IMG/VR virus record: IMGVR_UViG_3300036861_000222
Span: 1 to 59,125 of that record
Source of the DNA: a virus
DNA: 59,125 nucleotides
Direction: 5' to 3' (one strand)
Under the pieces are notes generated by a model. The model saw nothing but the letters and a program-made list of their open reading frames with translations. It was not told the DNA's origin and made no database searches. Each line of letters begins with the position of its first letter. Position 1 is the stretch's first letter. Made by a program: the position numbers and the translations under genes. Below are positions 5,524 through 15,511 of the stretch, piece by piece.

Positions 5524-6306
5524 ATGACAGAACGAAATCCAAGGCACAATGCGTCGTTTCTGCTCTATGGACGCACGAAGGTAGGGAAGTCCTCCCTTGC
5601 GGCAACATCCCCCGGACCGCTCCTCGCGCTTGACGCGGAGGGTTCTTGGAACGCCTTCGATGGCAGGCGGAACCCGAACAACGAGGGACAGCCGTACCGC
5701 GTCACGTGGTGGGATGACCTCGCGTCACCTCCACCTGCGATGGACGAGCATGACATCTGTGTCGTAGATGTGCAGCGTTGGGAGACGGTTGACCAGGTCA
5801 TCAACTGGGTTATCCGTCCTGACCACCCGTTCCAATCCATCGTGATGGACTCGGTTACCGAGGTCCAGAACCGTTGTAAGAAAGCACTTGTCGGTATCGA
5901 AGGCTTGCAGTATCAGGACTGGGGCAAACTCCTGGCGCACATGTCCGACCGCGTGAAGCGGTTTCGGGACATCGTGAAGGATCGGGACAATCCCGCTCGT
6001 GTCATGGTGTTCACCTCCGAAGGCAAGGCGCAGCAAGATGGGACGTACACCCCGCAGATGGAGGGGTCACTCCGCAACGGCATCGGGTATTGGATGAACA
6101 CCACCGCGTGCCTGCGTATCGCCCAGGTGGCGAACCAAGACGGGATCATCACCGACGACTCACCTACGGTGCGACGCTTGCTGGTGAAACCGCACCCTCT
6201 GTACATCACCGGTTCGCATTTCGAAGACCGGTTCGAAAGCAATACCATCGATAACCCCAACATCACCACGATGATGGGCAAGATCTTCCACGGCTTCCAG
6301 CCGTAA
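5524..6306 (+). CDS. Sak4-like RecA-fold recombinase/annealing ATPase
   Basis: A 260-aa RecA-fold NTPase of the phage Sak4 type, which promotes single-strand annealing. Walker A is GRTKVGKSS at 16-24, and Walker B is IVMDS at 106-110 with a following T/E. Sak4 genes normally sit beside an exonuclease and an SSB-like partner, exactly as here. Start ATG has the leader GAGAAAGGATCAA upstream. Alternative call: generic AAA NTP-binding protein. Confidence 0.8.
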   Translation: MTERNPRHNASFLLYGRTKVGKSSLAATSPGPLLALDAEGSWNAFDGRRNPNNEGQPYRVTWWDDLASPPPAMDEHDICVVDVQRWETVDQVINWVIRPDHPFQSIVMDSVTEVQNRCKKALVGIEGLQYQDWGKLLAHMSDRVKRFRDIVKDRDNPARVMVFTSEGKAQQDGTYTPQMEGSLRNGIGYWMNTTACLRIAQVANQDGIITDDSPTVRRLLVKPHPLYITGSHFEDRFESNTIDNPNITTMMGKIFHGFQP

Positions 6307-6886: not shown

Positions 6887-6904
6887 ACCATGAAAGGACT
6901 ATTC

Positions 6905-7351
6905 ATGCCATTTTGGGTAGCGAAGAACCGACAGAAAGACAAAGACAACGCCTTCGCACGCCGCGCCAAGCGACAGCGTGAGGAGCCGGAACAGGAGCCG
7001 CTGTCGACGCCCGAGGAGACTGACCTCTCTTTGGAGGCAGCCGTTCAGCAGGCCGCATCGGTACTCTCCGAAACCCCCGTGTTGGATGCTGCGGAGGTTC
7101 CCGAAGCAGTATCGGCAACTGAGAACAAGCGTGGACGCAAGCCTTCATCTGCGGTTGCCGCTCGTGAAGCTCGGGTGCTGGAAATCGTGCAGGATTCCGG
7201 CGACGCGGGTGTTTCAAAACCGGACATTGCCCAGGCCATGGAAGAGAAAGAGCAGCAGGTGTACACCTCGCTGCGTAAGCTCGCCCAGGCTGGCAAGGTT
7301 GAGAGCAAGTATGTCTCTGAGGTCAACGGATACCGCTGGTTTACCCTCTGA
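6905..7351 (+). CDS. winged-helix DNA-binding protein with charged N-terminal tail
   Basis: A 148-aa protein. Residues 1-85 are charged and probably disordered (Lys/Arg then Glu/Pro rich, with a GRKP AT-hook-like element); residues 88-148 form a winged helix (VLEIVQDSGDAGVSKPDIAQ, then QQVYTSLRKL as recognition helix). It may be a nucleoid-associated or transcription factor. ATG 6905 has AAAGGA seven bases upstream and is preferred to the ATG at 6890, which overlaps the terminator tail. It sits between the replication block and the tRNA operon. Confidence 0.6.
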   Translation: MPFWVAKNRQKDKDNAFARRAKRQREEPEQEPLSTPEETDLSLEAAVQQAASVLSETPVLDAAEVPEAVSATENKRGRKPSSAVAAREARVLEIVQDSGDAGVSKPDIAQAMEEKEQQVYTSLRKLAQAGKVESKYVSEVNGYRWFTL

Positions 7352-7369: not shown

Positions 7370-7398
7370 CTACCCCGGGGGTTGACTGCCCCGGGGCA
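7370..7398 (+). terminator. hairpin between winged-helix gene and tRNA operon
   Basis: CCCCGGGG occurs on both sides of an eight-base spacer that itself contains the -35 of the tRNA promoter. There is no U-run, so termination is uncertain. Confidence 0.4.
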
Positions 7399-7410
7399 TT
7401 ATGTTAGAGT
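7382..7410 (+). promoter_or_regulatory. promoter of the tRNA operon
   Basis: TTGACT at 7382-7387, a 17-base spacer and TAGAGT at 7405-7410. It is the only good sigma-70-type promoter before the 3 kb tRNA array and resembles the repeated promoters of the 43-52 kb arm. Confidence 0.75.
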
Positions 7411-7453
7411 ACTCCTATCAGCAAGAACGAAGACACACGACGGAAGGATGCCA

Positions 7454-7519
7454 ATGTCTGACAACACATGGGATGACCTCGATTGGGACAATGGGCAGGA
7501 CATTCCTGTCGGGAAGTAG
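7454..7519 (+). CDS. 21-aa acidic peptide upstream of tRNA array
   Basis: ATG 7454 follows GGAAGGA and encodes an Asp/Trp-rich peptide (MSDNTWDDLDWDNGQDIPVG, then K). It is the only frame with a ribosome-binding site between the promoter and the first tRNA; it may be a leader peptide. Function unknown. Confidence 0.45.
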   Translation: MSDNTWDDLDWDNGQDIPVGK

Positions 7520-7551
7520 TACCATCAAGTCCGGGCTTCGGTCCGGCACAA

Positions 7552-7622
7552 GCCTTCGTAGCCTAGTGGCAAGGCAACCGTCTCCAAAGCGATTGACAGA
7601 GGTTCGATTCCTCTCGGGGGTG
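7552..7622 (+). tRNA. tRNA-Trp (CCA)
   Basis: Acceptor GCCTTCG pairs with CGGGGGT, D stem GCCT/AGGC, anticodon loop CTCCAAA, T arm AGAGG/CCTCT. One mismatch (28-42) in the anticodon stem. No encoded CCA end. Confidence 0.85.
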
Positions 7623-7733
7623 CTGAGTGTGTGAGTCCGTACACTTAGAAGGCCAAGCGCTTAACCAGCGTAACGGACTAACCAGCCTAGGTCGCTCCTA
7701 GGACTGGCAAAGGCTCCTGGTGGTTCAGGGGTA
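7623..7733 (+). other. structured inter-tRNA spacer
   Basis: No gene. Holds a 44-base element closed by GTCCGT/ACGGAC (7635-7678) with an inner CGCT/AGCG hairpin, then a second hairpin at 7682-7707 (CCAG-CCTAGG pairing with CCTAGG-A-CTGG). Neither carries a T loop or a U-run, so they are neither intact tRNAs nor terminators. Confidence 0.6.
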
Positions 7734-7806
7734 AACGCGGTAGCTCAATGGTAGAGCAGGGCCCCTAACCCGGGCCCGGATCTGGGTTCGAGTCCCAGTC
7801 GCGTTA
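7734..7806 (+). tRNA. tRNA-Val-like (AAC?), unusual anticodon arm
   Basis: Acceptor AACGCGG/TCGCGTT, D stem GCTC/GAGC and T arm CTGGG/CCCAG are normal. The anticodon arm is one base too long: GGGCCC and GGGCCC form six pairs around loop CTAACCC, giving anticodon AAC (Val). Identity is uncertain because of the extra base. Confidence 0.6.
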
Positions 7807-7920
7807 CGGAAGCGATACCGGCTCCGAGGACGCCCACAGGTAGTCCTCTGACTGGACCTTGAGAGCGTCACTCTCTCAGGGTGTGCGTGACAGGTGTGAT
7901 GGCCTGGGTACGCACTGCGA
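7807..7920 (+). other. structured inter-tRNA spacer
   Basis: No gene. Three hairpins in a row: GAGGAC/GTCCTC (7826-7848), GAGAG/CTCTC (7861-7875) and GTGCGT/ACGCAC (7883-7915) with a nested CAGG/CCTG. No U-runs. Confidence 0.6.
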
Positions 7921-7992
7921 CGCGGGATAGCTTAAAGGTAGAGCACCTGGCTCATAACCAGGATGATGCGGGTTCGACTCCCGCTCCCGCTA
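7921..7992 (+). tRNA. tRNA-Met (CAT), position 1-72 unpaired
   Basis: Anticodon loop CTCATAA in stem CCTGG/CCAGG; D stem GCTT/GAGC; T arm GCGGG/CCCGC. Acceptor CGCGGGA/TCCCGCT leaves C1 opposite U72, a mismatch at the place where initiator tRNAs are unpaired, but the three G-C pairs of initiators are absent from the anticodon stem, so elongator use (or tRNA-Ile2) remains possible. Confidence 0.8.
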
Positions 7993-7995
7993 CGA

Positions 7996-8047
7996 GAACG
8001 GTTCGGAAGGTTCATCGGGGGATGGTCACCTGAATACCGAGCCGTTC
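7996..8047 (+). other. inter-tRNA hairpin
   Basis: GAACGG pairs with CCGTTC and continues inward with TCGG/CCGA across 52 bases. No tRNA loops recognised. Confidence 0.5.
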
Positions 8048-8050
8048 GCT

Positions 8051-8133
8051 GGAAAGTCTGAGACTTGGTGTCTCGCCCCGGTTGCTACCTGGGGACATCC
8101 TTCGGGATGACGGTTCGATCCCGTGACTTTCCG
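8051..8133 (+). tRNA. tRNA-Ser (GCT)
   Basis: Acceptor GGAAAGT/ACTTTCC, D stem GAGA/TCTC, anticodon loop TTGCTAC, class II variable arm CATCC/GGATG, T loop TTCGATC, discriminator G. Confidence 0.85.
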
Positions 8134-8136
8134 CAT

Positions 8137-8219
8137 GGAGGGTAGCGCGCGTTGGTGCGCAAGCGGTCTTGAAAACCGTGCCAGGGTGAAACCTGAGGGT
8201 TCAACTCCTTTACCCTCCG
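8137..8219 (+). tRNA. tRNA-Ser (TGA)
   Basis: Acceptor GGAGGGT/ACCCTCC, anticodon loop CTTGAAA, variable arm AGG/CCT, T arm GAGGG/CCTTT with wobble pairs, discriminator G. Confidence 0.85.
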
Positions 8220-8231
8220 CCAACTACATAG

Positions 8232-8334
8232 GCGTTATTCGAGATTCCGCACACCTCCGAATAACGCGCGTGGCTCCCCCAGGACGCCACGTGTACCGGG
8301 TGGGTCTTTCATCTCCACACTTCCCACCCGGTAC
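8232..8334 (+). other. three consecutive strong inter-tRNA hairpins
   Basis: 8232-8267 has a perfect 10-bp stem (GCGTTATTCG/CGAATAACGC); 8269-8291 has CGTGGC/GCCACG; 8293-8334 has a perfect 12-bp stem (GTACCGGGTGGG/CCCACCCGGTAC) with an 18-base loop. They fill the gap between tRNA-Ser and tRNA-Tyr. No U-runs. Confidence 0.75.
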
Positions 8335-8338
8335 GAAC

Positions 8339-8418
8339 GGGAGTCCGATGCAGGTGCATCACCCAGCCTGTAAAGCTGGTGTCCATGGACAAGGTTGGTT
8401 CGATACCAACGGCTCCCA
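8339..8418 (+). tRNA. tRNA-Tyr (GTA)
   Basis: Acceptor GGGAGTC/GGCTCCC, anticodon loop CTGTAAA in stem CCAGC/GCTGG, class II variable arm GTCC/GGAC, T arm GTTGG/CCAAC, discriminator A. Confidence 0.9.
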
Positions 8419-8419
8419 C

Positions 8420-8493
8420 GCCGCGTTAGAGTAACGGTTATCTCACCAGGTTCTCAACCTCGGAGACTACGGGTTCGAATCCCGTACGCGGTA
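8420..8493 (+). tRNA. tRNA-Glu (CTC)
   Basis: Acceptor GCCGCGT/ACGCGGT, anticodon loop TTCTCAA, T arm ACGGG/CCCGT. One mismatch in the anticodon stem. It starts two bases after tRNA-Tyr ends. Confidence 0.85.
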
Positions 8494-8502
8494 CGTGAAT
8501 AA

Positions 8503-8575
8503 TCGGTTGTGGTGCAACTGGAAGCACGCTAGGCTTTGGTCCTAGAGGTTCCTGGTTCGAACCCAGGCAGCCGAG
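8503..8575 (+). tRNA. tRNA-Gln (TTG)
   Basis: Acceptor TCGGTTG/CAGCCGA, D stem GTGC/GCAC, anticodon loop CTTTGGT in CTAGG/CCTAG, T arm CCTGG/CCAGG. Confidence 0.9.
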
Positions 8576-8580
8576 CTTGA

Positions 8581-8652
8581 TCCCTGGTAGTTCAGTGGAA
8601 GAACGCCGAGCTGTTAACTCGGATGTCGTTGGTTCGAATCCAGCCCGGGGAG
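8581..8652 (+). tRNA. tRNA-Asn (GTT)
   Basis: Acceptor TCCCTGG/CCGGGGA, D stem GTTC/GAAC, anticodon loop CTGTTAA in CCGAG/CTCGG, discriminator G. Confidence 0.9.
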
Positions 8653-8671
8653 CGTCACAAGTGAACATTGA

Positions 8672-8745
8672 TGCTTGCTAGCACAATTGGTAGTTGCGTC
8701 CGGCTCTGAACCGGAAGGTTCCTGGTTCGAATCCAGGGTGAGCAG
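8672..8745 (+). tRNA. tRNA-Gln (CTG)
   Basis: Acceptor TGCTTGC/GTGAGCA, anticodon loop CTCTGAA in TCCGG/CCGGA, T arm CCTGG/CCAGG. Confidence 0.88.
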
Positions 8746-8748
8746 CGT

Positions 8749-8819
8749 TGGGGCTATGTGAACGTAAGACTGTCGCAGAGAACGGGCATAGACGTATCTC
8801 ATAAAACGCAGGCACCCCA
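8749..8819 (+). other. structured inter-tRNA spacer
   Basis: TGGGG (8749) pairs with CCCCA (8815) and encloses CTATG/CATAG (8754-8791). No tRNA signature. Confidence 0.45.
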
Positions 8820-8826
8820 TTGATAA

Positions 8827-8899
8827 GGTCCGTTAGAGTAGTGGTTATCTCACCTGGCTTTCATCCAGGAGAAGACCGGTTCGATCCCGGTACGGACTA
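8827..8899 (+). tRNA. tRNA-Glu (TTC)
   Basis: Acceptor GGTCCGT/ACGGACT, anticodon loop CTTTCAT in CCTGG/CCAGG, T arm ACCGG/CCGGT, discriminator A. Confidence 0.9.
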
Positions 8900-8915
8900 C
8901 GCAAGACAACTTCAT

Positions 8916-8988
8916 GCTTCATTGGCGCAGGGGTTAGCGCAACGGCTTGTCACGCCGTAGGTCGCGGGTTCAAGTCCCGTATGGAGCG
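8916..8988 (+). tRNA. tRNA-Asp (GTC)
   Basis: Acceptor GCTTCAT/ATGGAGC, anticodon loop TTGTCAC in ACGGC/GCCGT, discriminator G. Confidence 0.9.
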
Positions 8989-8991
8989 CAA

Positions 8992-9026
8992 GGCTTCCAA
9001 GTCTTCTAGTCGGTCGCTTGGAAGCC
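8992..9026 (+). other. inter-tRNA hairpin, perfect 10-bp stem
   Basis: GGCTTCCAAG pairs with CTTGGAAGCC around a 15-base loop; three bases separate it from each neighbouring tRNA. No U-run. Confidence 0.75.
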
Positions 9027-9029
9027 AGA

Positions 9030-9101
9030 CGGGATATGGCCCAGTGGTAAGGCGCTTGCTTTGGGAGCAAGACAGCGGAGGTTCGATTCCTCCTATCCCG
9101 A
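9030..9101 (+). tRNA. tRNA-Pro (TGG)
   Basis: Acceptor CGGGATA/TATCCCG, anticodon loop TTTGGGA in CTTGC/GCAAG, T arm GGAGG/CCTCC. Confidence 0.9.
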
Positions 9102-9103
9102 CT

Positions 9104-9175
9104 GAGTGTGAAGCACGAAGGCAGTGCGCCCGGTTGTGGTCCGGGATTCTGCGGGTTCGAGTCCCGTCACACTCC
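9104..9175 (+). tRNA. tRNA-His (GTG)
   Basis: Acceptor GAGTGTG/CACACTC, D stem GCAC/GTGC, anticodon loop TTGTGGT in CCCGG/CCGGG. Discriminator C, as expected for tRNA-His, but the base before position 1 is T, so the usual encoded G-1 is absent. Confidence 0.87.
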
Positions 9176-9187
9176 CCAACTTCATAA

Positions 9188-9260
9188 GCTCCGGTAGCCC
9201 AACGGTAGAGGCATCAGGTTTAGGTTCTGATCAGTGGGGGTTCGAATCCCTCTCGGAGTA
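9188..9260 (+). tRNA. tRNA-Leu (TAG), class I shape
   Basis: Exactly 73 nt: acceptor GCTCCGG/TCGGAGT, anticodon loop TTTAGGT, five-base variable region TCAGT. A leucine anticodon (reads CUA), but without the long variable arm normal for tRNA-Leu. Confidence 0.82.
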
Positions 9261-9261
9261 C

Positions 9262-9334
9262 ACTCGCCTAGCCCAACGGTAGAGGCGGCGCTCTCAAAAG
9301 GCGTTCAGTCCTGGTTCGAATCCAGGGGCGAGTA
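9262..9334 (+). tRNA. tRNA-Leu (CAA), class I shape
   Basis: 73 nt, one base after the previous tRNA: acceptor ACTCGCC/GGCGAGT, a D arm identical to its neighbour, anticodon loop CTCAAAA, variable region TCAGT. Again lacks the long variable arm. Confidence 0.82.
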
Positions 9335-9372
9335 CGTTGTTACCGCAACATATATCCTAAGAAACCACAAAC

Positions 9373-9396
9373 GTGACATAATGCCAGTTATGTCAC
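9373..9396 (+). other. inter-tRNA hairpin, perfect 9-bp stem
   Basis: GTGACATAA pairs with TTATGTCAC around TGCCAG. Confidence 0.7.
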
Positions 9397-9402
9397 CCAT
9401 AT

Positions 9403-9475
9403 GCCCTGATAGCTCAACGGATAGAGCGACAGCCTACGAAGCTGGTAGTTGGAGGTTCGAATCCTTCTCAGGGCA
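9403..9475 (+). tRNA. tRNA-Arg (ACG)
   Basis: Acceptor GCCCTGA/TCAGGGC, D stem GCTC/GAGC, anticodon loop CTACGAA, discriminator A. Outer anticodon-stem pair is mismatched. Confidence 0.88.
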
Positions 9476-9491
9476 CGAAGGCATCTTTCAA

Positions 9492-9552
9492 GTTCGGGTA
9501 CGGAACAGTCAAACAAGGCTGTACGTTAGGGATGGGCAGACGAAGCCCGAAC
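9492..9552 (+). other. structured inter-tRNA spacer
   Basis: GTTCGGG pairs with CCCGAAC across 61 bases, with an inner ACAG/CTGT stem. Confidence 0.5.
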
Positions 9553-9556
9553 ACAT

Positions 9557-9627
9557 GCGGTAGTAGCTTAGTGGCAAAGCGTCTGTCTTCCAAACAGATA
9601 ACGGGAGTTCGATTCTCCCCTACCGTT
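9557..9627 (+). tRNA. tRNA-Gly (TCC)
   Basis: Acceptor GCGGTAG/CTACCGT, D stem GCTT/AAGC, anticodon loop CTTCCAA in TCTGT/ACAGA, discriminator T. Confidence 0.9.
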
Positions 9628-9630
9628 CGG

Positions 9631-9692
9631 GGAGTGATGGGTTAGGACTCCGCATCAAAACTTCACCTCGGTTCCCGCGCAAGCCGGAACCG
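9631..9692 (+). other. two inter-tRNA hairpins
   Basis: GGAGT/ACTCC at 9631-9651 and a perfect 7-bp stem CGGTTCC/GGAACCG at 9669-9692. Confidence 0.55.
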
Positions 9693-9696
9693 CCAT

Positions 9697-9770
9697 GCCC
9701 TTATAGCTCAGTAGGTTAGAGCAGTCGCCTTGTAAGCGAACGGTCCGGGGTTCGAATCCTCGTTGGGGCT
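9697..9770 (+). tRNA. tRNA-Thr (TGT)
   Basis: Acceptor GCCCTTA/TTGGGGC with a U-U mismatch at 6-67, anticodon loop CTTGTAA, T arm CGGGG/CCTCG, discriminator T. Confidence 0.85.
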
Positions 9771-9808
9771 CAGCAACATGGCAAAGTGGGTTGTCGTGTT
9801 GAGTGGCG

Positions 9809-9836
9809 TCTCAAGCCTGGGACTTCAGGCTTGAGA
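9809..9836 (+). other. inter-tRNA hairpin, perfect 10-bp stem
   Basis: TCTCAAGCCT pairs with AGGCTTGAGA around an 8-base loop, just before tRNA-Phe. Confidence 0.75.
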
Positions 9837-9842
9837 TGTTAC

Positions 9843-9914
9843 GTCTTGCTAGCTCAGTTGGCAGAGCACAGGATTGAAACCCCTGGTGGCGTGGTTCGAT
9901 CCCACGGCAGGACA
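9843..9914 (+). tRNA. tRNA-Phe (GAA)
   Basis: Acceptor GTCTTGC/GCAGGAC, D stem GCTC/GAGC, anticodon loop TTGAAAC, T loop TTCGATC, discriminator A. Confidence 0.88.
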
Positions 9915-9929
9915 CGTTACAACTACATT

Positions 9930-10002
9930 GGGTCATTAGCTCAGTAGGTAGAGCTCTGTTCTCTTAAATCAGATGTCGTAGGTTCGATCCCTACATGACC
10001 CA
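9930..10002 (+). tRNA. tRNA-Lys (CTT)
   Basis: Acceptor GGGTCAT/ATGACCC, anticodon loop CTCTTAA, one U-U mismatch in the anticodon stem. Confidence 0.87.
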
Positions 10003-10006
10003 CTTT

Positions 10007-10081
10007 GCGCCGTTAGCTCAGTTTGGTCAGAGCTGTGTACTTTTAATACACAGGGCGAAGGTTCGAATCCTTCACGGCGTA
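10007..10081 (+). tRNA. tRNA-Lys (TTT)
   Basis: Acceptor GCGCCGT/ACGGCGT, anticodon loop CTTTTAA in GTGTA/TACAC, discriminator A. Confidence 0.9.
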
Positions 10082-10082
10082 C

Positions 10083-10155
10083 ACCCTGTTAGCTCAGTGG
10101 ATAGAGCGGGAGGTTTCTACCCTCCGCGCCCCGGGTTCGAATCCTGGACAGGGTA
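10083..10155 (+). tRNA. tRNA-Arg (TCT)
   Basis: Acceptor ACCCTGT/ACAGGGT, anticodon loop TTTCTAC in GGAGG/CCTCC. Reads AGA, rare in GC-rich hosts. Confidence 0.9.
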
Positions 10156-10156
10156 C

Positions 10157-10229
10157 AACGCGGTAGCTCAGTGGTTAGAGCGGCATCCTGATACGATGCG
10201 GGTCCAGGGTTCAAATCCCTGCCGCGTTA
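10157..10229 (+). tRNA. tRNA-Ile (GAT)
   Basis: Acceptor AACGCGG/CCGCGTT, anticodon loop CTGATAC in GCATC/GATGC, T arm CAGGG/CCCTG. Confidence 0.9.
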
Positions 10230-10230
10230 C

Positions 10231-10303
10231 GCACCATTAGCTCAGCGGAACGAGCGGCTGTCTTACAAACAGCGGGTCGGGGGTTCAACTCCCTCATGGT
10301 GTA
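10231..10303 (+). tRNA. tRNA-Val (TAC)
   Basis: Acceptor GCACCAT/ATGGTGT, anticodon loop CTTACAA in GCTGT/ACAGC, discriminator A. Confidence 0.9.
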
Positions 10304-10308
10304 CGGAT

Positions 10309-10379
10309 GGATTGATCACCATCAAATCCTAGATAACCGCTGCGTCCTGGCCTAGGCACCCTTCGAGGTGTAAGGATGC
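10309..10379 (+). other. two inter-tRNA hairpins
   Basis: GGATTGAT/ATCAAATCC (10309-10329, one bulge) and GCGTCCT/AGGATGC (10342-10379) with a nested CACC/GGTG. Confidence 0.55.
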
Positions 10380-10383
10380 GTTA

Positions 10384-10456
10384 GGGCTGTTAGCTCCAAT
10401 GGTAGAGCATCTGTTTTGCATACAGAGGGTTGTCGGTTCGAATCCGTCACGGTCCA
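10384..10456 (+). tRNA. tRNA-Ala (TGC)
   Basis: Acceptor GGGCTGT/ACGGTCC, anticodon loop TTTGCAT in TCTGT/ACAGA, one mismatch in the T stem, discriminator A. Confidence 0.87.
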
Positions 10457-10464
10457 CGGTGAGA

Positions 10465-10493
10465 GTTCCGGGTGTTCTAGACTCCCCCGGAAC
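10465..10493 (+). other. inter-tRNA hairpin, perfect 8-bp stem
   Basis: GTTCCGGG pairs with CCCGGAAC around a 13-base loop. Confidence 0.65.
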
Positions 10494-10572
10494 CACCCGC
10501 TATAGCCATTCTCCAAACCTCCAGTACGGCCGTACGTTCACGAGGAGCGGATGACCCTGCCTTTAGCGTCAA

Positions 10573-10646
10573 GGCGTGATGTCCGAGTGGTCAGGTAACG
10601 GCCTGCAAAGCCGTTCACGTGGGTTCGAATCCCGCTCACGCTTCCA
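10573..10646 (+). tRNA. tRNA-Cys (GCA)
   Basis: Acceptor GGCGTGA/TCACGCT, anticodon loop CTGCAAA in ACGGC/GCCGT, discriminator T and an encoded CCA end; the other array members examined lack CCA. Confidence 0.88.
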
Positions 10647-10682
10647 ACCTCATATGAGCGCGCATGAGCGCGCACCGCTCAG

Positions 10683-10716
10683 TGAGCGCGCATCCTCCGG
10701 GTTGCGCGCTCATTTT
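10683..10716 (+). terminator. terminator of the tRNA operon, built from the GCGCGC motif
   Basis: TGAGCGCGCA pairs perfectly with TGCGCGCTCA around a 10-base loop and is followed by TTTT. Both arms are copies of the motif that fills the next genes. Confidence 0.75.
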
Positions 10717-10731
10717 GGTGTCTGATAGAAT
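10702..10731 (+). promoter_or_regulatory. promoter of the transfer-like operon
   Basis: TTGCGC at 10702-10707, 18-base spacer, TAGAAT at 10726-10731. The -35 lies inside the right arm of the tRNA-operon terminator. Confidence 0.65.
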
Positions 10732-10764
10732 TCGTCAACGACACGACGAACGAAGGACGAAACG

Positions 10765-12021
10765 ATGAATGACTTTGCATCAACACCCGAGGGAGCGCTC
10801 ATCATCGCGTGCGCGTTCGGAGCGCTCATGATCGCACTCATCCTGTGGCGCACCGCAGGAGGCGCGCGTGCGCGCGCATCTGAGAAAGCGCGCGCATGGG
10901 CTGAACTGAAGCGTCCCGAGTGGGAGGAGCGCGCATCGCGCAAACGAGAAGCGCGCGCATCTGGAGCGCGCGCAGACGCGCGCTTGCGCATTGCGCTCCT
11001 GAGCGCGGTTGCGCTCGTTGCGATCGCAGCCACCAACCTGAGCGCTCACGCTACGATCAACGCGATTCGGCGCGCAGGGCTGGACAGCGTTGACGCTGCT
11101 ATCTCCGTGGTGATCGTCTTTGAAGCGTTCCTGATGATCCTCGGAGCACTGTCCTGGTGGCACATGAACCGAGGCACGGGCCCCAACTGGTATGAGGTGG
11201 GCGTCTGGTCTATGGCCGCGCTCATGGGAATTGTTGCCTGGTGGGGTGGACACAACCCCATCTTCGCGTTGTGGCCCCTCTTGGCGGCTATCGCCTGGCA
11301 CGTGGTTATCACCTTCGGACGAGAGCACAAGCAGTCAGCGCTCATCACCTGGTGGCGCATGAAGCGTGGCAAGGCCACCTCGCAGGACGCAAACGTGGTG
11401 CTCACTGAGCGTCTGATCACGGCCATTGTTGATCACGGTTACGCGGCCAACGAAGGAGCGCGCGCACTGCGCGCATTCCATGAGCGCGCATTCAACCGCG
11501 CATGGGCGCGAGCGGATGCGCTCGGCATCCTCACCCCCGAAGTGCGCGCGCGCATCCAGACGCGCATTGCCGCTCGCTACGCCGGAGCGCGCGCGCTCGC
11601 CCCTGAGAAGGTTGAGCACATGAACCCGTGGAATGAGCGCGCAATGAGCGCTCCCTCTCGGAGTGCGCGCACGGTGCGCCCGGTGAGCGCTCCTCCCGCT
11701 CCCGCTGTCGAGGTGAGCGCGCATGGAGAAGTGAGCGCGCATGACGAGCGCGCATCTGAGGATGAGCGCGCAACGGAGGTTGCCGAGACGATCACCGTTC
11801 CTACGTACACTGAGAGCGCCTATTCCAAGGGTGAGCTGGTGGAAGCTATTGAGAAGTTCTTTGCCAGCAAGAACATGGTGGCGAAGGAATGGGCCAAGAC
11901 GTTCGTTGAAACCAACGGTGTCCTTCCCAACGGTGATGACCTTGCGCGGTTCACCCGGAAGACGGCAGCCAACTGCCGGAAGTGGATGGCTCCGGTCCGT
12001 AAGGAACTGGGTCTCAGCTAA
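10765..12021 (+). CDS. multi-span membrane protein (plasmid Spd/DUF2637-like)
   Basis: A 418-aa membrane protein. Hydrophobic segments lie near residues 10-28, 74-93, 108-128 and 142-172; the long C-terminal part is cytoplasmic-like, with Ala/Arg-rich repeats and a final basic helix pair (about 350-418) that resembles a small DNA-binding fold. Arrangement and size resemble the spread/DUF2637-type membrane proteins next to TraB/TraSA translocases on actinobacterial mobile elements, and the FtsK-like gene two positions downstream supports this. The Ala-Arg bias comes from embedded GCGCGC motifs. The start follows a GAAGGA leader. Family assignment is inference. Confidence 0.6.
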   Translation: MNDFASTPEGALIIACAFGALMIALILWRTAGGARARASEKARAWAELKRPEWEERASRKREARASGARADARLRIALLSAVALVAIAATNLSAHATINAIRRAGLDSVDAAISVVIVFEAFLMILGALSWWHMNRGTGPNWYEVGVWSMAALMGIVAWWGGHNPIFALWPLLAAIAWHVVITFGREHKQSALITWWRMKRGKATSQDANVVLTERLITAIVDHGYAANEGARALRAFHERAFNRAWARADALGILTPEVRARIQTRIAARYAGARALAPEKVEHMNPWNERAMSAPSRSARTVRPVSAPPAPAVEVSAHGEVSAHDERASEDERATEVAETITVPTYTESAYSKGELVEAIEKFFASKNMVAKEWAKTFVETNGVLPNGDDLARFTRKTAANCRKWMAPVRKELGLS

Positions 12022-12280
12022 GCTCAGGAGGCTGGCACACCCCCGGATGGGGGTGTGCCAGTCCTGTTCCCAGGTCTCCAGATCTGGCACACCTACAAAC
12101 CACGGTTGACCTGCGGAAATACTGATTTGGCACGGCTGACACGCTGTGCCAGCGTCTGCGAGGGCGTAGCATTTCCGCAGGTCACAGCCATCCACCAACT
12201 GACAATCTGGCATGGCGTGCCGTGCCGGAATGGTGTATGATTAAATACCTAGTCAGAGATGAAACGATAGGAAGATACAC
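12022..12280. promoter_or_regulatory. intergenic region with nested inverted repeats
   Basis: No gene. A perfect 13-bp hairpin (12032-12044 with 12049-12061, loop GGAT) ends the upstream gene. Then TGACCTGCGGAAAT at 12107-12120 is inverted perfectly at 12171-12184; between them TGGCAC (12128) faces GTGCCA (12146). CTGGCA-type words recur at 12032, 12083 and 12207. TATGAT at 12236 is a likely -10 for the next gene. Candidate operator or origin. Confidence 0.6.
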
Positions 12281-12718
12281 ATGATTGAGACTGCCATCGA
12301 CCAGACAGCCGGAGGGCTCGCGGTTGCGTTCTTCCTCTGGGCCTGGTGGACAAACCGGAGGAGCGACAGCAGGGCTGCGGGTATTTCAGCTGTCATCCTT
12401 GCCATCGTGGGATCGATGCTGTTCTATGCTGCTCCGTGGTCGCTGTGGTTCGCGAACCTTGTCGCCTCCATTCTCCAGATGTTCGGAGATTTCCCGGTAC
12501 ACCCGGTTATGACCATTGCCTGTCTGGCACTGTTGGGGGGTGTGGTCTTCGACCTCATCAATGACCCGACGTACAACGTCGGCGCTGTATGGGCGCTTAT
12601 CTTCGCTCCGATCATGGCGCGCGGCGCGGCTGGCCTTGCAGGTTCGTTCTTGGAGCAGCTGTTCGGCGGCGCTTCGATGGCGTTCCTCGACGCTGTGAAG
12701 CACCTCTTCGGAGCCTGA
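12281..12718 (+). CDS. small multi-span membrane protein
   Basis: A 145-aa protein with about four hydrophobic helices (near residues 10-24, 35-50, 55-68, 78-95 and 100-120) and Trp-rich boundaries. It lies directly between the large membrane protein and the FtsK/TraB-like ATPase and ends one base before the ATPase start, so it is probably part of the same membrane complex, like small Spd proteins of Streptomyces plasmids. ATG has AGGAAGA upstream. No firm family. Confidence 0.65.
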   Translation: MIETAIDQTAGGLAVAFFLWAWWTNRRSDSRAAGISAVILAIVGSMLFYAAPWSLWFANLVASILQMFGDFPVHPVMTIACLALLGGVVFDLINDPTYNVGAVWALIFAPIMARGAAGLAGSFLEQLFGGASMAFLDAVKHLFGA

Positions 12719-12719
12719 C

Positions 12720-14567
12720 ATGAGCGCTCATGAGGAGATCGAAAACGATGAGCGCGCACTGTCGCGCTATGCGCGCGCGTCTTGGGATCTCGCTTCCCAA
12801 GGCGCGCGCCGCCATGTTGAACGTGCGCGCGAGTGGGTGCGCGCTGAAGGCCTAGAGGATCACATGCGCGCTCAAGAGGTCAAGCAGATGAGCGCGCGCA
12901 ATGAGCGCGCATCGAAGCAGCGAGCGCGCATGTCCAAGCGAGCGCGCGCGAGCGCGCATCCGCCAGCACCTGTGCGCGCCATGAGCGATCTTGAGCTGAA
13001 GTCGCGCGCATTCGGTACGCGCGCACTGCGCTCACTCGGAGCACTCAGCGTGCCGTGTGCGGTAGCGGCCTATCCGGTCTGGAGCCTCGCGCAGGGTGAC
13101 CCCGTGCCGCTTCTGCTGTGGCCTTCCGCCTACGGGTACCTGGTGTGGGACGGATGGATGTTCCTGAACAGGGAAGAGAAACGAGCTGAGGGCGATGAAC
13201 GAACTGAGCCGCTTCCTGTCGAGAACGGGAAAGTACCCGTCTTCCGTCCGCAGCGTCTGACAGAACTGCCTCCCACTGCGGAGGAAGTGCAGATCATCCA
13301 CCGAATCGACACATGGGCGGAGCGCGCGGAGGAGCGGAAGCTGCAGGACGTGGTTCCGCAGCACCCTGTGATCGATGAATCAGGGCTCCTCATCCCCATG
13401 GATCTGACGGGGCAGTGGACACGGGAAAAGCTCGGAGGCCAGGTCAGCCAGATTCGCGCGCTCCTGGCGGTACCGGATGGTATTCAGACGCAGGTGAAGC
13501 CGGGAGGTACCGCCGACCGCGCGGTGTTGCGGGTGCGGACACGTATCCGTGACCTCGATCTGGCTTGGAACCCTGAGCGCAAGGGGTTGGGGCTTGACGC
13601 TGATACGGCCGAGATCATCACTATTGACATCACTGACCGCATCCTCGTTGCGGGAATGTCGGGTGCTGGTAAGTCGGTAGTGCTGCGGACGCTCATGGCG
13701 GAAGTCCTCGGCCTCATCCACACGGTTGTGGTCATCATCGATCTGAAAGTCGAGGGCGCGTTGTGGGCGCATTGCGCTCGTGTCGAGTCGAAGAAAGGAG
13801 GTATTGAAGGCCTGGTATCCGAGCTGATCGCTGAGATGGAGGAACGGGAAGACATCATGCGTGAGCGCGGGATGGACCTGTGGGAACCTACCGCTGAGCG
13901 ACCGCGCATCGTGGTAGTGGTTGATGAGGGAGCCGAGCTGATCGGGGGTGTTCCTGACTGTATCGACAGGATTCGAACCCTCGCGGTGCGGGCCCGAAGC
14001 TCCCAGATGCCTGTCTGGTGGGCTACGCAGAAGCCGACAGTCACTGGAGCAGGGCGTGGACTCGACACCATGATCTCCGCGCAGCTGACCACGATCATCT
14101 GTTTGGCGGTTACCTCCCCTCAGGAGTCGCGCACCGTACTTGGGGAGGACGCTACCGCTAACGGTTGGGATGCTGACGAGCTGTTGAAAGGTGGCTGGGC
14201 ACTCGTCCGTACACAGGGGGAGCGGAAGGTTCCGAACCCGGCCAGGGTCTGGTTCATGACGAAAGAGGATGTGAAGGCGATCCCTCCGCGTGAGGCGTGG
14301 AGGCGAAAGAAGGCAGGCGTTGAGGCAGTGCCACACATCCTGGCGGTAGCACTGAAGTTGTCCGAAGGGCTGCAGGGTGTTTCCACAGCGCAACTGGTGT
14401 CAGTCCTGGGGTTCACGGATACTGAGGTACACACGCGACTCCGCGCGCTGGGCGCCTCACCCGAACCGAACGCCTTCGCCATGGGCAATGGAGACAAAGC
14501 GCGTGGTTATCGACGCTCTGTGCTTGAATCTGCACTAATGACTGTGAGGGGTCAGTATGAGGCTTAA
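12720..14567 (+). CDS. FtsK/TraB-like DNA translocase
   Basis: A 615-aa hexameric-type DNA pump. Residues 1-100 are Arg/Ala-rich and packed with GCGCGC motifs; two membrane helices follow near 105-150; the motor has Walker A GMSGAGKS at 312-319 and Walker B VVVVDE ending at 403, then WWATQKPTVTG as sensor. The C-terminal 80 residues look like a winged helix, the part that reads DNA in FtsK-gamma and in plasmid TraB. Such proteins move double-stranded DNA between mycelial cells in actinobacterial plasmids or segregate chromosomes. Encoding one in a lytic-type phage is unusual. It overlaps the next gene by 11 bases. Confidence 0.85.
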   Translation: MSAHEEIENDERALSRYARASWDLASQGARRHVERAREWVRAEGLEDHMRAQEVKQMSARNERASKQRARMSKRARASAHPPAPVRAMSDLELKSRAFGTRALRSLGALSVPCAVAAYPVWSLAQGDPVPLLLWPSAYGYLVWDGWMFLNREEKRAEGDERTEPLPVENGKVPVFRPQRLTELPPTAEEVQIIHRIDTWAERAEERKLQDVVPQHPVIDESGLLIPMDLTGQWTREKLGGQVSQIRALLAVPDGIQTQVKPGGTADRAVLRVRTRIRDLDLAWNPERKGLGLDADTAEIITIDITDRILVAGMSGAGKSVVLRTLMAEVLGLIHTVVVIIDLKVEGALWAHCARVESKKGGIEGLVSELIAEMEEREDIMRERGMDLWEPTAERPRIVVVVDEGAELIGGVPDCIDRIRTLAVRARSSQMPVWWATQKPTVTGAGRGLDTMISAQLTTIICLAVTSPQESRTVLGEDATANGWDADELLKGGWALVRTQGERKVPNPARVWFMTKEDVKAIPPREAWRRKKAGVEAVPHILAVALKLSEGLQGVSTAQLVSVLGFTDTEVHTRLRALGASPEPNAFAMGNGDKARGYRRSVLESALMTVRGQYEA

Positions 14568-14797: not shown

Positions 14798-15511
14798 GTG
14801 AACTGGTATCGACTCCGCGTGGAGATCGCAGCATGGGCAATGCGTTCGTGCATTTCGGTGCTGACCTTCCTGGTAATCGTGCGTGTGCTGTTCATCTCAA
14901 GAGAAGGCATGCGATCCTACGCGATCTCACTACGCTTCCTTGCTGAAAACGAGTGGGTGTTGTACGCCGGGCTCCCGTTGGGAATCGCGATCCTATGGCT
15001 GTGCTACTGGCGGGTGTTCCGTGTTTACCGAGGAAGACGTCGTTATAAAGAAAACCCAGTTCGCCTAGGAGGTCATGTGCGCAGAACTGAACAACCCGCA
15101 GCCCCTCGCACTAGTGAGGGGCTGCGTCCCCATTGGGAGGAAAAGGCGGCGTGTCGAGACTACAACAACAAGTATCAAGACCCTTGGGACGCTGACCCCA
15201 GCGTGGGTCATGTCAACTCGGAGGCGCACAGTTTCTGTGGCAGATGCCCGGTGAAGCGTGAGTGCCTACTAGCAGGCCTGCGAAGCGACGCACTCAACAA
15301 CGGCGTTGCTTTTGGTATCTGGGGAGATACCGCACCCAAGCATCGCCGAGCCATGATCCGAGTTCGCTACCGTCAAGCGTGCCCTGTTTGTAAGGGGAAG
15401 CTCGTGATCACAGCCAACGGTGAGGAGTGGCAGGCATGTGCCTCATGTGGGATCACCTGGCGCTGTAAGAAGCGTGTCGTCTTCACGCACGGTACACAGC
15501 AACCCAGCTGA
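14798..15511 (+). CDS. membrane-anchored WhiB-family protein with zinc ribbon
   Basis: A 237-aa three-part protein. Residues 18-34 and 52-72 are membrane helices. Residues 112-185 are a WhiB domain: Cys119, then Cys147, Cys150 and Cys156 as the iron-sulfur ligands, followed by GIWG at 173-176. Residues 195-217 are a zinc ribbon (two CxxC pairs). An internal in-frame GTG at 15077 (codon 94) is preceded by an excellent AGGAGG, so a soluble 144-aa WhiB may be made as well. WhiB proteins are confined to actinobacteria and their phages and act with the sigma factor. The end overlaps the convergent tail gene by 29 bases. Confidence 0.8.
   Translation: MNWYRLRVEIAAWAMRSCISVLTFLVIVRVLFISREGMRSYAISLRFLAENEWVLYAGLPLGIAILWLCYWRVFRVYRGRRRYKENPVRLGGHVRRTEQPAAPRTSEGLRPHWEEKAACRDYNNKYQDPWDADPSVGHVNSEAHSFCGRCPVKRECLLAGLRSDALNNGVAFGIWGDTAPKHRRAMIRVRYRQACPVCKGKLVITANGEEWQACASCGITWRCKKRVVFTHGTQQPS

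Follow-up and report, generated by a model that had tools for sequence, protein, structure and literature searches.

Why does a phage operon for an FtsK/TraB-like DNA translocase repeat one short motif through its own coding DNA, and what reads these sites? The operon lies in the window, by which we mean the whole 59,125-bp viral contig that was analyzed, and consists of three genes, g1, g2 and g3, all on the plus strand. A sequence-only reading of the locus had taken the motif, GAGCGCGCA, for a polar site recognized by the translocase itself. The observation behind that reading is real, and it is wider than first reported.

Distribution of the motif and selection on nucleotides

The window contains 14 forward and two reverse copies of GAGCGCGCA, all within 10656-12958 and none in the rest of the contig, which agrees with the at least fourteen against two in 2.3 kb noted from the sequence alone. 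Dinucleotide shuffles of the window gave an expectation of 1.26 copies and a maximum of 6. Upstream of g1, the 56 bp of non-coding DNA contain three copies in forward and one in reverse orientation; g1 itself has seven, all forward, and the opening 240 nt of g3 have four forward and one reverse. The motif had been described as spanning 10656-14567 and as continuing through intergenic DNA and two genes. This holds for the DNA upstream of g1, for g1 and for the start of g3, but g2 and the g1-g2 gap are empty, and the absence of copies past 12958 leaves about 1.6 kb of that range without the motif. As also claimed, all three reading frames are used, with copies in frames 0 and 2 of g1 and in frames 0, 1 and 2 of g3.

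The broader site is an 8-bp dyad, GMGCGCKC (M = A/C, K = G/T), with 41 copies in 10656-13040 compared to 8 in the other 56.7 kb. Its half-sites come in two versions, GAGC/GCTC and GCGC. The mixed form GAGC-GCGC predominates in the window and gives the site its polar look, whereas GCGC-GCGC is found in many relatives. The hexamer GCGCGC occurs 28 times in g1 and 18 times in the first 330 nt of g3, where the part ahead of the membrane segment (12720-13040) is saturated.

Profile scans gathered about 35 related IMG/VR contigs with the same g1-g2-g3 operon, a family of viruses from soil, and the hotspot is shared among them. The density of GCGCGC per kb is 30 in g1 and reaches 65 over the initial 330 nt of g3, but is 2.7 over the remainder of g3. 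It is 0.6 for g2, 0.5 for the g1-g2 gap and 0.65 elsewhere, so that g1 and the g3 start exceed the level elsewhere by a factor of 50-100. The core dyad is palindromic in most relatives and the full site in many, including the divergent relative L122. This relative has the same layout with the motif changed to GAGCGCTC, which is present in 14 copies in the operon and absent from the rest of its 13.2-kb locus.

The encoded proteins contribute to the strand bias. Codon shuffles, in which synonymous codons are permuted within each gene so that protein and codon usage are preserved, already expect 1.6 forward to 0.2 reverse copies of GAGCGCGCA in the window, and much of the bias there is therefore due to the protein sequence. 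Still, the forward excess survived a full count, as the relatives have 137 forward and 39 reverse copies against 16 and 21 expected, although these relatives are not independent.

The same shuffles argue for selection on the nucleotides themselves. In five phages, g1 and g3 each contain more GCGCGC than any of 2000 synonymous shuffles, and all three frames contribute copies; for the window, the counts are 28 in g1 (11.3 expected) and 21 in g3 (8.3 expected). Arginine codons in conserved columns are 95-96% one codon inside motifs and 58-74% outside, a difference that is partly by construction because the columns were picked for the motif. Nearest-neighbor distances between sites within genes gave no clear 10-11 bp period. 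Given the shuffles, the use of all three frames and the synonymous conservation, selection for the dyad at the nucleotide level in g1 and the g3 start very probably operates across these phage contigs, at the level of either DNA or RNA. Selection on nucleotides had been proposed from the letters of the window, and it withstood the comparisons: the motif is not denser elsewhere in the genome than in the operon, and conservation in relatives is not limited to protein positions.

The operon and its non-coding elements

The first gene, g1 (10765-12021), encodes a 418-aa membrane protein in which a helical N-terminal half is followed by a disordered linker at aa 277-348 and by a compact domain at the C-terminus (aa 355-415, encoded at 11827-12009). 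AlphaFold models the latter as four helices with pLDDT 80-88, which we read as a likely helix-turn-helix (HTH) and propose as the reader of the array. A fold search with the g1 model returned no significant match, and g1 has no match in Pfam or among annotated phages. Its homology to the DUF2637 family (PF10935) was considered and dropped, as the profile similarity is not significant (hhalign probability 0.7%) and Pfam gave no match. The C-terminal domain occurs in several sequence types (L012 and L010 versus L009 and L011) that are out of step with the rest of the operon, which suggests that it has been recombined or swapped. With the exception of L122, its sequence varies among phages without a clear change of motif.

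The second gene, g2 (12281-12718), encodes a 145-aa hydrophobic membrane protein. The third, g3 (12720-14567), encodes a 615-aa FtsK/TraB-like DNA translocase (phrog_17958, E 2.5e-56). Its FtsK_SpoIIIE ATPase domain is recognized by PF01580 (E 1.3e-8; 35 bits against a cut-off of 24), and FtsK and TcpA are the closest folds of the g3 model in Foldseek, with the FtsK motor 6t8o at E 8e-14. The predicted C-terminal winged helix (aa 538-614, 14331-14561) has the AlphaFold order H-E-H-H-E-E-H with pLDDT around 80. An FtsK/TraB motor ending in a winged helix, as first described, is thus borne out, and both motor and winged helix are conserved in all relatives. The view of the operon as a transfer- or segregation-type system that marks itself within its own genes is likewise supported.

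The surroundings of the operon are in line with a phage of actinobacteria. A WhiB-domain gene follows directly 3' of the operon (14798-15511), with a similar gene after g3 in L012, and 26 tRNA genes covering most amino acids lie in the 3.1 kb immediately upstream (7552-10646); an actinobacterial host is therefore likely. For the terminase, all matches are distant, and many are to Streptomyces phages. No relatives emerged when bacterial genome contigs were scanned with profiles of g1 and g3, and no ParA or ParB was seen among the proteins scanned, which cover part of the genome.

Between tRNA-Cys and g1, the non-coding DNA contains a tandem pair TGAGCGCGCA-TGAGCGCGCA with an exact 10-bp period (10655-10674, plus strand), and this module is kept upstream of g1 in about 10 relatives. 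It is followed by a hairpin resembling an intrinsic terminator, the arms of which are the motif (TGAGCGCGCA ... TGCGCGCTCA TTTT; 10683-10716, plus strand), and the reverse GAGCGCGCA copy upstream of g1 is its right arm. The hairpin closes the tRNA array. In L122, the equivalent lies at about 5895-5920, and the stem arms have switched together with the motif to GAGCGCTC.

The g1-g2 gap has a different array. Seven copies of [CT]GGCAC(ACC)/GTGCC[AG], i.e., of the unit [CT]GGCACACC/GGTGTGCC[AG], occupy 12033-12227 in both orientations, and within them lies a 14-bp inverted repeat, TGACCTGCGGAAAT ... ATTTCCGCAGGTCA (12107-12184), which is kept in many relatives. The CGGCACACC array fills the gap in both orientations also in the relatives examined, where CGGCACAC occurs 118 times in 7.35 kb of g1-g2 gaps compared to 7 times in 369 kb elsewhere. 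Downstream of it, the probable -10 box of a g2-g3 transcript is TATGAT (12236-12241, plus strand; extended form TGTATGAT, and TGTATAAT in most relatives). The CGGCACACC array is a likelier candidate than the coding array for the motor's own, clt-like site, where g3 would load; alternatively, it may be an operator of the g2-g3 promoter.

A parallel in plasmid DUF2637 genes

Genes of the DUF2637 family on Streptomyces plasmids show a comparable saturation. The encoded proteins have four transmembrane segments, a charged linker and a C-terminal HTH, and each gene is filled with one of three motifs: CGTGAGC (pSN22, pJV1, L133-L137, L154 and L094), CGTGAAC (L139, L140, L141, L144, L145, L147, L152 and L153) or CGCGAAC (pWTY27 and pSM17B). 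In L094, a distant FtsK relative, the DUF2637-type gene (7397-8449) lies beside FtsK and has 13 forward copies of CGTGAGC where 3.0 are expected. The DUF2637 gene is where the copies cluster, with usually few elsewhere on the plasmid; neighboring traB, rep and GntR genes are generally not saturated, and in L135, where the whole region is duplicated, the second motif cluster is the second DUF2637 gene. Phage and plasmid genes alike exceed synonymous shuffles with motifs in their own coding DNA, in more than one frame. No earlier report of an array in Streptomyces DUF2637 genes was found in the literature searched.

The plasmid motifs switch in two frames at once. In one frame, Arg-Glu is written as CGT GAG, CGT GAA or CGC GAA according to the motif class, and in the other, the linker repeats are Val-Ser (GTG AGC), Val-Asn (GTG AAC) and Ala-Asn (GCG AAC), respectively. 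In control genes, CGTGAG encodes 6 of 81 Arg-Glu pairs. As a few other genes also show weaker repeats of their own, such as the TraB-type gene of L139 and the primase/polymerase gene of L140, saturation alone is not a specific test, whereas the two-frame switch is.

The motif class can also be predicted from the protein. The recognition helix S-x-[G/A]-W-V-[A/S] predicts it in 18 of 18 genes, three of which were held out of the rule, and none of the three motifs was found in the five DUF2637-type genes without this helix. Arrays matching the encoded helix are present in L094 and in loci of L132-L147 and L152-L154. Because the 18 cases follow plasmid lineages and share ancestry, they are not independent, and the match between helix and motif is a strong association rather than proof. 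The gene for phiC31 gp25 (L150, 5450-6166) and its relatives (L151, 4914-5714) encode distantly DUF2637-like proteins whose C-terminus resembles an HTH, and these genes are not motif-saturated.

In the plasmids, these sequence patterns indicate that the array is probably read by the HTH of the DUF2637 protein itself. The coding motifs differ from the published TraB/clt sites, which are TGACACC and CCCGCCC in pWTY27 and CCGCACASS in pJV1 (PMC3583192), and the coding array is therefore argued to belong to the membrane HTH protein. Like g1, the spread-type DUF2637 genes (pSN22, pJV1, pWTY27 and others) combine a membrane segment, a linker and a C-terminal HTH in motif-saturated coding DNA, and they lie in a tra/spd region with an FtsK-like TraB; unlike g1, they carry CGTGAGC, CGTGAAC or CGCGAAC, and the proteins have no significant sequence similarity to it. 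The plasmid evidence thus carries over to g1 by architecture only, and g1 can be said to work like DUF2637 proteins rather than to be a member of the family. By this analogy, the chance that the C-terminal HTH of g1 reads the array in its own gene is about even.

Candidate readers of the array

The repeats are best explained as a cis-acting array of binding sites that lies within coding DNA, adjoins an FtsK/TraB-like motor and is probably bound by the encoded membrane protein g1; from the sequence evidence, we give this a probability of about 0.5. Points against it are that the array extends over the beginning of g3, unlike in plasmid traB genes, that the g1 C-terminal domain varies among phages with no clear change of motif outside L122, and that the actinophages YDN12 and Xkcd426, which have a similar gene pair, are not saturated. 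The predicted reader would be the C-terminal HTH of the protein that the array encodes. With g1 anchored in the membrane and bound to many sites, the phage DNA would be tethered and clustered there and presented to the motor g3. The forced Ala-Arg, Glu-Arg-Ala and Ser-Ala-His residues would be tolerated by linkers and cytoplasmic segments, which might explain why the array is placed in them. Plasmid spread genes are thought to move or hold DNA across septa or between compartments, and the array may likewise serve to move or tether phage DNA, which would be moved or held in these places.

There is a precedent on pIJ101, where SpdA2 binds a palindrome inside its own gene and recoding of the site affected stability (PMC4170104). 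As proposed here, a DNA-binding protein encoded by the element, and belonging to the spread/stability genes, has a short palindrome in its own coding sequence. However, pIJ101 has 2-3 copies of a 12-bp palindrome, whereas the arrays described here saturate the gene with 9-40 copies, and SpdA2 is a small, putative zinc-finger-type protein rather than a membrane protein with a linker, with no adjoining FtsK operon of the g1-g3 kind (PMC4170104). The plasmid spread membrane protein SpdB2 is cited there as binding DNA, non-specifically in that assay, as oligomerizing and as contacting TraB (cited in PMC4170104).

The original proposal, in which the winged helix of g3 reads the array as a KOPS/TRS-like site for loading or orientation, is weakened by these results, and we consider it unlikely. 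It is favored by the good FtsK motor and conserved winged helix of g3, by the extension of the array into g3 and by the forward excess in relatives, but most relatives have a palindromic core, and in L122 the palindrome is complete. In addition, the plasmid arrays lie outside traB, in the DUF2637 gene, where they covary with its own HTH, and the phages have the separate clt-like array in the g1-g2 gap. The array is also missing in FtsK-bearing actinophages without g1 homologues. No motif saturation was found in the FtsK genes of YDN12, Xkcd426, JustBecause and Mischief19. The layout in the Streptomyces phage YDN12 is that of g1-g3 with the motif missing; its gene 70 (L069, 8024-9064), which adjoins the FtsK gene, encodes a hydrophobic membrane protein that ends in a MerR-like HTH. 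Streptomyces TraB with clt/TRS shares with the phage an FtsK-like motor, a transmembrane part, a winged helix and cis repeats, but known clt are short arrays of other sequences near or at the end of the tra gene, whereas the phage coding array runs through two genes and has a palindromic core. FtsK/KOPS and SpoIIIE/SRS likewise share the motor type and C-terminal winged helix with g3. KOPS and SRS are polar and spread over the whole chromosome, whereas the phage sites have a dyad core and are confined to one 2.4-kb operon, with no set of polar sites across the replicon and skewed to its terminus.

Other explanations leave out both membrane protein and motor. The array might be an autoregulatory or nucleoid-type region for a separate phage or host protein, such as a repressor, a ParB-like protein or a nucleoid protein, and the tandem 10-bp pair beside the g1 promoter in about 10 phages would fit this, as would a phage regulator gene at 6890-7351. 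We regard it as improbable, since about 24 relatives have the coding array with no motif near the g1 promoter and the plasmid motif matches the DUF2637 helix itself. Marginally less probable still is a role in the mRNA, where self-complementary GCGCGC or GAGCGCTC would steer folding, stability or translation or be the target of an RNA-binding protein. Every copy lies in probably transcribed sequence, the upstream copies make the terminator-like hairpin and a forward excess fits an RNA signal; against this, some copies are reversed, and CGTGAGC and the other plasmid motifs lack self-complementarity and fall into classes that follow a recognition helix of the DNA-binding type. A mutational or compositional artefact is very unlikely and, from the sequence comparisons, largely refuted by the shuffles and the motif switching. 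The encoded stretches are indeed rich in Ala and Arg and conserved, and GCGCGCGC runs occur in relatives, so that slippage of GC dinucleotides, codon-pair bias or a need for Ala-Arg-rich protein could be suspected. However, own-codon shuffles were exceeded in five phages, the motifs of the window and L122 are not dinucleotide repeats, in the plasmids two frames change together when the motif class switches, and same-genome controls are mostly flat; slippage and codon-pair bias were rejected on the basis of the shuffles, the frames and the switching.

Returning to an array bound by the protein it encodes, we tentatively propose, at slightly less than even odds, that self-marking genes form a general class on actinobacterial plasmids and phages. 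In these genes, the DNA for the disordered linker would itself consist of predicted binding sites of the encoded protein, which binds DNA and is anchored in the membrane. Such a gene would be messenger, linker and centromere-like anchor at once, and site and recognition helix would coevolve, with both reading frames following. If true, coding DNA is here shaped at the same time by selection for a protein and for dense binding sites, with the reader of the sites encoded by the sites, and recognition helix and motif would form a one-to-one code. The poorly understood Streptomyces spread genes would gain a specific, testable DNA target, and phage FtsK operons would be linked to plasmid spread in mycelial bacteria.
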